NCBI RefSeq assembly: GCF_039641995.1
Contig: NZ_CP087714.1
Location: forward strand, 744,001-808,000
Length of the DNA: 64,000 nt
Direction of reading: 5' to 3'
DNA from: Geoglobus acetivorans
GTDB lineage: Archaea > Halobacteriota > Archaeoglobi > Archaeoglobales > Archaeoglobaceae
In this document: positions 16,173 through 19,404 of the stretch, in pieces
Numbering within the stretch: the stretch's first letter is position 1
Layout: every line of letters begins with the position of its first letter
Translations under genes and position numbers: made by a program
The notes under the pieces: generated by a model
Seen by the model: only the letters and a program-made list of their open reading frames with translations
Told to the model about the DNA's origin: nothing
Databases searched by the model: none

Positions 16173-16907
16173 TCACTTGCCTGCCAGGTAGTCGTAAAGG
16201 AATGCTGCAGCAACTGCCCCCAGTATCGGACCGATGATGTATATCGGGAAGTACTGCCAGAGGTTTATGCCATACATTGAATCCACGAGGTAAGGCCCGA
16301 AGGTTCTCGCAGGGTTCAGTGATGAGCCTGTTATGTTTCCGATTGTTACGATTATTCCTCCGACTGTCAGTCCTATTATAAGCCCTGCAAATCCTGGTGG
16401 GGCACGTTCATCCACGGCGACACCCATTATGACCATCATCAGCACGAATGTTCCAATGGCCTCTGTAATGATGGCCTGGCCATAACTTATCCCCGGAAAC
16501 GGTGCGGTGGCACCCATACCCCCGATAAGGGCTGCGTTGCTCCCGACACTTGCCAGGAAGAGAATGCTGCCAAGGCTCGCACCAATCAGCTGCGCAACGA
16601 TGTACGGTGCAACTTCAGAGCTCGGAAATCTTTTCGTTGCCCAGAGCGCAATGGTTACGGCAGGGTTGATGTGGGCACCACTAACCCTCCCCAGCGAGTA
16701 TATGACGGCAGATATTATCAGCGCGAAGGCCATCCCTATGGCGAGCCAGTCCCCAAGTCCACCCAGGGCACCAATCCCTATGTTGAATTCGTTTGGCGTC
16801 TGGGCTTTGTTGGAGATCATGAGTGTGATTACTGCTGAACCTGCACCGAAATAAACGAGCAAAGCGGTTCCCACAAGCTCGGAGACACACTTCTTTACAA
16901 GCGTCAT
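16173..16907 (-). CDS. aqpM: Aquaporin / MIP-family channel (AqpM-like)
   Basis: Membrane channel of 244 residues with six hydrophobic helices and both half-helix motifs: HINPAVT (Asn81-Ala83) and SLNPARTF (Asn198-Ala200, then Arg201 of the selectivity filter). It passes water and possibly glycerol or small gases through the cell membrane. The long first loop with KAQTPNEFNIG resembles archaeal AqpM. The gene follows a DUF2180 gene by two bases and a DUF2193 gene, all on the minus strand, so it ends a three-gene operon probably driven by the promoter at about 18.68 kb. Symbol given from family resemblance. Confidence 0.9.
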   Translation of the reverse strand: MTLVKKCVSELVGTALLVYFGAGSAVITLMISNKAQTPNEFNIGIGALGGLGDWLAIGMAFALIISAVIYSLGRVSGAHINPAVTIALWATKRFPSSEVAPYIVAQLIGASLGSILFLASVGSNAALIGGMGATAPFPGISYGQAIITEAIGTFVLMMVIMGVAVDERAPPGFAGLIIGLTVGGIIVTIGNITGSSLNPARTFGPYLVDSMYGINLWQYFPIYIIGPILGAVAAAFLYDYLAGK

Positions 16908-16909
16908 CC

Positions 16910-17119
16910 TCAGCCCTCCTCGTACGCTTCATTGCAGATGGAGCACAGAATTCTTGGCACGGTCTTTTTCAGCTTTCTTGATGGGAAGGGGTAGTCTCCT
17001 TTCCAGAGTTCAACGTCCTTCCTGACAAGATGCTCCATGCAGACTCCCATTCCGCAAACAATGCAGATAGCAACAGCCTCGGTATCTTTCCCCTGCTCTT
17101 TACAAATATAACATTTCAT
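16910..17119 (-). CDS. Small DUF2180-type zinc-binding protein
   Basis: Protein of 69 residues with paired cysteines MKCYICKE, AICIVCGMGVCMEH and RILCSICNEAY, arranged like a small B-box/zinc-ribbon fold binding one or two zinc ions. I recognise it as the archaeal DUF2180 family, whose function is unknown. It sits 29 bases after the DUF2193 gene and two bases before the aquaporin gene. Its place in this operon suggests it works with one or both neighbours, possibly as a metal-dependent adaptor (inference). Confidence 0.74.
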   Translation of the reverse strand: MKCYICKEQGKDTEAVAICIVCGMGVCMEHLVRKDVELWKGDYPFPSRKLKKTVPRILCSICNEAYEEG

Positions 17120-17148: not shown

Positions 17149-18648
17149 TTAAACTGCTTCTCTCCACTGGCAATATGCGTGTCTGGAGTCCACGAGCGCT
17201 GCCGTGGCACAGTCCTTACAGACTCTTGCCGGTGATGCCGGGGTATCCTTGTGCAGCGCAATGATGTTGGTCATCATTGTTGCCGTAACAGGCTCGCTCG
17301 TGAGCAGGCATGGATAGTCAGCCAGTCTCATCAGGGCAGAGAACCTCACGCTGATGGCACATCCGGGATACGCATAGCGCTGCGGATTCATCAGGACCTC
17401 GTTCTCGTGGATTGGATCGAGATTCACCTCAAAGCCTGAGACCTTTGGCACGAGTTTGTCTGAAAGACCGTTCCTGTCTCTCCTCGCCTTGTCGAGGTAC
17501 TTCCATCCCCTGTATATCATGTCCATGAAGTCGTGGTTGTGCAGCTCAGCAGCACCGCTTCTCGTCGGATACAGCTGGACGTAGTTGTGGTACCTCTTCG
17601 TCAACAGATCGACGATCATGGGGGCGTTGAACCCATCAAGCTCCAGGATGTACTCCGTTGCGACTGCTGTTGAGCCTGTCGCCAGAGTCAGTGGCTGGTA
17701 CTCGCTCGTGAATCTGTCGAGATTTGCCCTGAGAGTCGATTCCATGACGTTGCTAACAGCTTCGATTACTGCCATGACGACATCATCCTTGCACATGTTG
17801 AATGTTGACTGGGCAATGTGGTGGGCGGCATCTCCAACACAGTAAGCCGGCACGGTTACAATGTTGCCGTAATGCACACCGTCATCCATCGCCTCTTTAA
17901 CTGCCCCTCTCATTCTGTTCTTGTATTCGCTCATGTATTTTCTCACATCGAAGCTCTCATGACCGTGCTCGTCCATCAGCCTTGCCTGAGCTTCAATTGG
18001 CTGATCGTAAACAAGCTTGATCATCTCAATTTCCTTCTTTATCGCATCGCTCAGTGTTGCGCCCTTTTCGATCTCGTTTGTGAAAACCCCTCCAAAGCCG
18101 TAGGAGGTGTTCATGCCCCACGACTTCGAGGCAAGGATTGCCTGGGCATGCTCCTTCGGTATGTCCACCGTTTTTAAAATTCTGTTCACGATGTTGCTTG
18201 TGCTTCCCGGTATGAGGGCGAAGTCCACAACACAGGTTGGGCCGTAGAACCCGCCATATCTCCTGACGACCTCCAGCCCTATCAGGGCTTCGGCTTTCCC
18301 TATGGCCTCAATAAACTTATCGACACTCTTTCTGAAGCTCTCATCTTCCTCGTACAGGATTTCGAGAATTGCCGGCGTCTGATAATGCTCCACGAACGGA
18401 TCGTCTTCCGGCCTTACGGTCTTTGTCAGACTTCTCAAAATTTCGAAGTGGGCATTCACGCTGTCCACGTGCAGTCTTATTACTGCCTTGCTCTGGTTTC
18501 CGACAGCCTTCATGTTGTTTACCGCATCTACATACGGCTTTACATCGTCTATAACAAACTCTCCTCCTCTCTTCTCCTTAATCACGTTCACATCCGCCCA
18601 CTGGGCGGCGATGGCCTCTTCGACCATCTTTTCAATGACTTCCTTCAT
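17149..18648 (-). CDS. DUF2193 family protein, function unknown, conserved in methanogens and relatives
   Basis: Protein of 499 residues resembling the archaeal DUF2193 family, best known from methanogens. No membrane helices or nucleotide motif are evident. Conserved-looking blocks include TVRPEDDPFVEHYQTPA, RRYGGFYGPTCVVDF, KSWGMNTSYG and VGDAAHHIAQSTFNMCKDD, and the C-terminal part has a cysteine cluster (VCKDCATAAL...YCQW). The many His, Asp and Cys residues in conserved blocks suggest a metalloenzyme, which is inference. The ATG is preceded by GGTGAT, and a TATA-like ATATATTTATC lies near 18.68 kb. It heads the operon with DUF2180 and aquaporin genes. Confidence 0.8.
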   Translation of the reverse strand: MKEVIEKMVEEAIAAQWADVNVIKEKRGGEFVIDDVKPYVDAVNNMKAVGNQSKAVIRLHVDSVNAHFEILRSLTKTVRPEDDPFVEHYQTPAILEILYEEDESFRKSVDKFIEAIGKAEALIGLEVVRRYGGFYGPTCVVDFALIPGSTSNIVNRILKTVDIPKEHAQAILASKSWGMNTSYGFGGVFTNEIEKGATLSDAIKKEIEMIKLVYDQPIEAQARLMDEHGHESFDVRKYMSEYKNRMRGAVKEAMDDGVHYGNIVTVPAYCVGDAAHHIAQSTFNMCKDDVVMAVIEAVSNVMESTLRANLDRFTSEYQPLTLATGSTAVATEYILELDGFNAPMIVDLLTKRYHNYVQLYPTRSGAAELHNHDFMDMIYRGWKYLDKARRDRNGLSDKLVPKVSGFEVNLDPIHENEVLMNPQRYAYPGCAISVRFSALMRLADYPCLLTSEPVTATMMTNIIALHKDTPASPARVCKDCATAALVDSRHAYCQWREAV

Positions 18649-18694
18649 CTAATCACCGAAATAATATAATCATTAATGATAAATATATACTCTG

Positions 18695-18760
18695 GTTGAC
18701 AAATCTACCCTTTGTGCGTGGAAATGTCAACGCTCATTGTTAAATATGATTAAGTTGACA
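18695..18760. promoter_or_regulatory. Three GTTGACA/TGTCAAC motifs in the divergent DUF2193/regulator promoter
   Basis: GTTGACA occurs at 18695-18701, its inverse TGTCAAC at 18725-18731 and GTTGACA again at 18754-18760. The first lies just upstream of the TATA-like element for the DUF2193 operon. The third lies between the TATA-like TTAAATATG and the ATG at 18769 of the regulator, where binding would block its transcription. The layout suits an activator of the operon that represses itself, most simply the Bat-type protein encoded next door (inference). Confidence 0.6.
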
Positions 18761-18768
18761 TATACACC

Positions 18769-19404
18769 ATGTATCTCGCAAAAATCAGGGTGAATCAGCA
18801 CACCTGTTCTCTCGCAGTTGCCACGTCAATGGGCAACGCAACAATTGAACTTCTTGAATATATTCTTTTGAATGACGATGAGGCTCTGTTTCTCGGAAGG
18901 ATAACGAGAATGGACGGAGATCCGAGCAAGTGCTTCAATGCGATAGAAAATCACCCCAGCACAAGATTTTTTCAGATTCTTGAAAAGACCAAGACGAACC
19001 TGGACTTCCTTGCAGTTATACGGGATACAACCGGCATCAAAGCATTTGAAGAATCATACTGCTTCATAAAGCCACCCATCATCGTTGAAGGGGGTTCAAA
19101 ACTGTACACGGTTTACGCTCCTGAACTCAAGTTTCTCAGGAATGCCTATGAAAAGCTGAGGAAAGTCGGCAACTGGGAAGTCCTCGAGGTCAGGAGCATA
19201 ATCGGTGAAAAGGGTGAGACTCTTACTGAAAGACAGTATGCGGTGCTGAAGGCAGCGTATGAAATGGGATATTTCGACAGAAAGCGAAAGGTAACACTTG
19301 AGGATATTGCCACCGCCTTAAACGTATCCAAGAGTGCAGTGCACAAGCACATCCAGGAGGGGCTTTGTAAGATAATTTCAAGATATTTTGCGGAGACTGA
19401 GTAA
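18769..19404 (+). CDS. Bat-type transcriptional regulator (HTH_10 domain)
   Basis: Protein of 211 residues. The C-terminal segment from about residue 150 reads LTERQYAVLKAAYEMGYFDRKRKVTLEDIATALNVS, characteristic of the bacterio-opsin-activator HTH_10 domain, followed by a recognition-helix-like KSAVHKHIQ. The N-terminal 145 residues are a sensor-like region with no cofactor motif recognised. It probably controls the divergent DUF2193-DUF2180-aquaporin operon through the three GTTGACA sites between them. The ATG lies about 27 bases after a TTAAATATG element, so translation is probably leaderless. Confidence 0.82.
   Translation: MYLAKIRVNQHTCSLAVATSMGNATIELLEYILLNDDEALFLGRITRMDGDPSKCFNAIENHPSTRFFQILEKTKTNLDFLAVIRDTTGIKAFEESYCFIKPPIIVEGGSKLYTVYAPELKFLRNAYEKLRKVGNWEVLEVRSIIGEKGETLTERQYAVLKAAYEMGYFDRKRKVTLEDIATALNVSKSAVHKHIQEGLCKIISRYFAETE

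Follow-up and report, generated by a model that had tools for sequence, protein, structure and literature searches.

The closest described systems are the Bat, DmsR, and NarO regulators of haloarchaea, which, like the archaeal regulator studied here, carry a C-terminal HTH_10 domain and are encoded beside their target genes; NarO and DmsR have a short architecture without PAS or GAF domains (PMC11218638), and the present regulator is alike in this respect. In Halobacterium, the bop promoter is preceded on its 5' side by a regulatory UAS linked to a Bat-type protein (PMC1447603), and in Haloferax, the denitrification semi-palindrome CGAAYATDKTYG (CGAACATGTTCG) lies 66–79 nt before the ATG in three promoters, with lower promoter activity when it is mutated (PMC10062603) and with a Bat-like protein as its suspected reader (PMC11218638). 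A sequence-only reading of the DNA analysed here had called Bat-type operators little defined, which overlooked these two precedents but holds insofar as the protein that binds CGAACATGTTCG is not proven. In archaea, activator sites are usually located upstream of BRE/TATA (PMC5937170); for TrmBL1, a position upstream of BRE/TATA gives activation and a downstream one repression (PMC4706686).

We report here that, in the window (the whole 64,000-nt stretch of Geoglobus acetivorans DNA that was analysed, numbered from its first letter), a gene for an HTH_10 regulator and a divergent DUF2193 gene are separated by a 120-base gap (18649–18768) with three conserved dyad sites, which, judged from sequence, this neighbouring regulator almost certainly binds. 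The regulator gene (18769–19404, + strand, 211 aa, likely leaderless) had been taken for an HTH_10 protein, and this is confirmed by its match to PF04967 (E = 7.8e-20). On the opposite strand, DUF2193 (17149–18648, −, 499 aa; PF09959, E = 9e-277) is the first gene of the operon and an aquaporin of the MIP family, AqpM type (16173–16907, −; PF00230, E = 7.5e-49), is the last of the cassette. The operon had been described as a two-gene DUF2193–aquaporin unit, but it has three genes, since the 241-bp space between these two is no true gap and encodes the overlooked DUF2180 (16910–17119, −), a small cysteine-rich protein of 69 aa, probably zinc-binding (PF09947, E = 1.2e-38). In 72 of 74 loci, DUF2180 separates DUF2193 from the aquaporin, the aquaporin is downstream of DUF2193 in most loci, and a search of the DUF2193–aquaporin space found no operator there, which is consistent with a single transcript.

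As for the cassette proteins, the AF2 model of DUF2193 is all-helical and a fold search found no PDB relative for it. A gene that we take to resemble the formaldehyde-activating enzyme (Fae) is located near the DUF2193–aquaporin cassette in the methanogen genus discussed below (L160, 3610–4113). In Methanococcus voltae grown on pyrite, DUF2193 has been found at higher abundance, and it has a conserved cysteine cluster (PMC9431491), and a close aquaporin of A. fulgidus showed no H2S conduction (PMC8963490). In several Archaeoglobi, a more divergent DUF2193 paralog comes directly after a gene for an MtrH-family methyltransferase (PF02007; L145 3649–5938, that is, G000:C1:687.6–689.9 kb, and also L146, L149, and L151), a pairing that hints at a possible role of DUF2193 in methyl-group metabolism; a further HTH_10 gene lies near this pair in one of these loci (L151, 2172–2843).

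Three copies of GTTGACA had been noticed in the divergent gap, and both their positions and strands are exact (18695–18701 and 18754–18760 on the + strand, 18725–18731 on the − strand). Alignment of the gaps shows the element to be a 14-bp dyad, GTGGACA-TGTCCAC (operator consensus GTGGACATGTCCAC, core GGACATGTCC), of which GTTGACA, taken before for the element itself, is the better half in the window species and its sister. The matrix is informative across all 14 positions; symmetry was imposed on the matrix but not on the single sites. Site 1 (GTTGACA-AATCTAC, 18695–18708, +, centre 18701.5) abuts the BRE/TATA of the operon promoter and is the weakest, with 11.8 bits against 14–16 for the other sites of the window; site 2 (GTGGAAA-TGTCAAC, 18718–18731, +, centre 18724.5) lies between the two promoters; and site 3 (GTTGACA-TATACAC, 18754–18767, +, centre 18760.5) lies between the TATA box and the start codon of the regulator. 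Both putative TATA boxes were recognised by eye from the sequence and the gap alignment. The operon box, TATATATT (18682–18689, −), directly follows site 1, which stops at the BRE edge and does not cover the TATA; from the usual TATA spacing of ~25 nt, the operon would be transcribed from near 18660, and a Shine-Dalgarno-like GGTGAT (18652–18657, −), kept in nearly all aligned gaps, precedes DUF2193. The regulator box, TTAAATAT (18740–18747, +), lies ~25 bp before the ATG, and therefore the regulator message is probably leaderless, starting presumably at or next to the ATG, which is what places site 3 between TATA and start. With the boxes drawn in this way, the same operator stands upstream of one BRE/TATA (site 1) and downstream of the other TATA (site 3), both in the window and in most of the divergent genomes.

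The conservation of this arrangement was followed in a sample of 59 genomes of the class Archaeoglobi. At a threshold of E ≤ 1e-10, the regulator was matched in 33 of them, comprising 26 full-length intact orthologs, one broken gene, and further matches mainly in the C-terminal part. All 26 intact orthologs adjoin DUF2193, 20 divergently and six in tandem, the latter all in a single genus (g2), and, of the 59 genomes, the 26 with the full-type DUF2193 are exactly those with the intact full-length regulator. The broken gene, in another g2 genome (G007:C80; L027, L165), has decayed to a pseudogene interrupted by six in-frame stops, and this genome has no DUF2193, an apparent joint loss of both. 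The divergent gaps measure 119–134 bp in 18 of 20 cases, with exceptions of 151 and 483 bp, and together these 20 gaps, which are not all independent since some of the genomes are close relatives, contain 37 dyads matching at least 10 of 14 positions, against a mean of 0.65 and a maximum of 4 in shuffled gaps. Upstream of DUF2193, a dyad matching at least 11 of 14 positions was found in 13 of 14 regions with the regulator versus none of 64 without it, and these 64 regulator-less loci mostly retain DUF2193 and the aquaporin. Kinship could account for part of this contrast, and this is why an independent clade of methanogens matters.

In orthologous gaps, the previously described layout is kept, with one site beside the operon promoter, one between, and one over the regulator start. 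The constant member of the set is site 2, which is present in all 20 divergent gaps, strongest in many genomes, and 76–78 bp from the DUF2193 ATG in most; site 1 is 53–55 bp from that ATG and, wherever detected in a divergent genome, 22–23 bp from site 2, the dyad search finding no site 1 in several genomes. Site 3 lies mostly 7–11 bp from the regulator ATG in divergent genomes, at a variable 33–38 bp from site 2, and is absent or weak in five of them (L012, L014, L017, L018, and L020). In the tandem genomes, the DUF2193 promoter carries an array at about −112/−68/−46 or −91/−46, that is, at multiples of ~22–23 bp, with the strongest site 91–113 bp upstream of the start, and the region upstream of the regulator is without a strong dyad.

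The conservation first claimed for GTTGACA thus stands for the 14-bp palindrome and fails for the literal heptamer, which is common only to the window species and its sister (L002), the next relatives having GTGGACA in the corresponding half at each of the three sites. The better halves of all three operators therefore changed from G to T together in one lineage. A paired change in the recognition helix was considered and rejected, the helix core SKSAVHKH being identical in the window and in L003–L005, whose regulators differ only by L195I and by less specific neighbours; because the core is unchanged, operator–helix covariation is not demonstrated.

Outside the class, two genomes of one methanogen genus encode a 40%-identical regulator (the gene of one being apparently frameshifted) with a recognition helix reading STAHHH against STAHKH, again divergent from DUF2193, and both gaps contain the identical perfect TAGGACATGTCCTA. 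A second DUF2193 copy, away from the regulator in one of these methanogen genomes, has no dyad. A methanogen homolog of the regulator (L161, 4844 onward; G140) is split by an apparent frameshift, and a diverged homolog in the same genus (G410, L177) has an in-frame TAG stop, with neither DUF2193 in the flank examined nor a dyad. Further regulon members were sought among perfect or near-perfect dyads elsewhere (G000:1592846, G030:C2:3790, G031:C13:40793, G025:910587, and others), but a wider regulon is not supported because these are single sites, mostly within coding sequences. About seven GTGGACATGTCCAC-like repeats in G019 (L169–L175), a genome without the regulator, were likewise set aside, several of them bordering the repeated element TTAACACAAACACCACC; these copies are probably the end of a mobile element.

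The regulator itself scores 70.9 bits for its C-terminal HTH_10 domain, against a curated cut-off of 23.1. Its AF2 model (pLDDT 87.5, from 15 sequences) shows two beta-alpha-beta-beta-alpha-beta repeats ahead of the HTH_10 domain, with a weak likeness of the N-terminal domain to HVO_A0563_N and, in a fold search, Ta1207 as the sole and weak relative. Since the N-terminus consists of these two modelled repeats and no PAS or GAF match was found in the protein, it does not qualify as a Bat proper. Two cysteines, C13 and C98, are invariant in all 26 orthologs, which hints at thiol or metal sensing.

Most likely, in our judgement, the regulator binds all three sites, activating the operon and repressing itself, the direction of each effect being read from site position; direct binding to these sites is, taken separately, highly probable. 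What the sequence evidence covers is the dyad, its conservation and spacing, its co-occurrence with the regulator, and its position relative to TATA and start. The 14-bp dyad would be bound by a regulator dimer, and sites 1 and 2, 23 bp or about two helical turns apart, would act as a phased pair; bound there, just upstream of BRE/TATA, the regulator may recruit TBP/TFB and switch on DUF2193–DUF2180–aquaporin. On site 3, in turn, it would block RNA polymerase, giving negative autoregulation, with the signal probably sensed by the two-repeat N-terminal domain bearing C13 and C98. Site spacing and the layout of the tandem genomes are why we attribute sites 1–2 to control of the operon and site 3 to autoregulation, and activation of the one with self-repression of the other is the best guess given the archaeal positional rule, that is, upstream of BRE/TATA versus downstream of TATA. 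Some genomes may lack activation from site 1, as this site is the weakest and goes undetected in several genomes, and site 2, whose centre is ~19 bp from that of the regulator TATA, could also serve the regulator promoter. Against activation speaks the strong-looking operon TATA of the window, which would not require an activator.

A rival reading is pure repression, in which the regulator would bind all three sites and silence both promoters, sites 1–2 hindering TFB/TBP and site 3 the polymerase, until released by an inducer. We consider this improbable but a serious rival because site 1 is in contact with the BRE, and repression by TrmB works through occupation of BRE/TATA (PMC4706686); the lone methanogen palindrome, lying between back-to-back AT-rich promoter-like stretches, could cover both, and NarO of the same family can act as activator or repressor according to a passage of PMC10062603 citing Koyanagi 2021. 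But site 1 of the window ends at the BRE edge and leaves the TATA itself uncovered, phased second sites farther upstream are characteristic of activators, the strongest site of the tandem genomes is too far from the start to block initiation directly, and the characterised Bat-type proteins (Bat, DmsR, and NarO) were found as activators.

If another factor bound the dyads, the neighbouring regulator would be a bystander, and the genome does hold four further HTH_10 domains. We regard this as very unlikely, given that the sites track the regulator and not the operon, as the DUF2193 upstream regions show, a distant genus included; that one of the sites lies at the start of the regulator gene itself; and that no 14-bp near-palindrome was found before three of the other HTH_10 genes of the genome.

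As for the heptamer by itself, GTTGACA occurs nine times in the window against 8.1 expected, which is chance frequency, and 282 times in the 1.9 Mb genome against roughly 240 extrapolated from window shuffles. Dinucleotide-shuffling the gap 3000 times never produced three copies of it, but a triple of some 7-mer arose in 295 of the shuffles (~10%) and in 18 of 1065 120-bp tiles of the window, and the GTTGACA triple alone is therefore weak evidence. A second GTTGACA pair of the window (8492/8553) was rejected as lying inside an actin-like coding gene. When sites are read as the 14-bp dyad with up to two mismatches, no other part of the genome has at least two within 1 kb. Applied to the literal letters, whose conservation stops at the sister species, the refutation test proposed by the sequence-only reading would have discarded a real feature; it is conservation, not word counting, that makes the feature real as judged from the sequences. 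Chance repetition of a functionless 7-mer, which the near-chance word frequency and the ~10% of shuffles would allow, is refuted by the dyad, position, and spacing conserved across genera and has a negligible probability.

In comparison with known systems, TrmBL1 and SurR of Thermococcales also use one palindrome that activates upstream of BRE/TATA and represses downstream of TATA, even in a single divergent region (PMC4706686), whereas their proteins and operators are unrelated to those of the window and they are global regulators, the window regulator looking local. From Bat, DmsR, and NarO, this regulator differs in clade and target, in having GTGGACATGTCCAC as its operator versus CGAACATGTTCG, and in showing no genome-wide regulon; a palindromic site, a trait expected of HTH_10 regulators of the Bat/NarO type, lies at the promoters of the neighbouring genes. 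The bop UAS differs in sequence from the dyad. Haloferax CGAACATGTTCG and GGACATGTCC of the window share an ACATGT centre and dyad symmetry, whereas the outer bases of the Haloferax motif are unlike, it precedes some 83 promoters versus one, and its cognate protein is not proven. Because of its HTH_10 domain and this common centre, we place the regulator among the Bat/NarO kind, with a newly defined operator. It is conceivable, as a rather doubtful extension, that it represents a distinct HTH_10 branch, probably cysteine-based through C13 and C98 and dedicated to DUF2193–DUF2180–aquaporin, in which the same dyad activates or self-represses by position and the G-to-T change reflects concerted drift of the operators and their reader. 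This is a sequence-defined predicted operator for an HTH_10 regulator outside haloarchaea, it links regulation to a cassette of three genes that methanogens and Archaeoglobi have both retained, and it offers an experimental route to the inducing signal and, by way of that signal, to what DUF2193 does. Given that Archaeoglobi, one methanogen genus, and haloarchaea all have an ACATGT-centred dyad, the operators of other HTH_10 regulators may be predictable as well.
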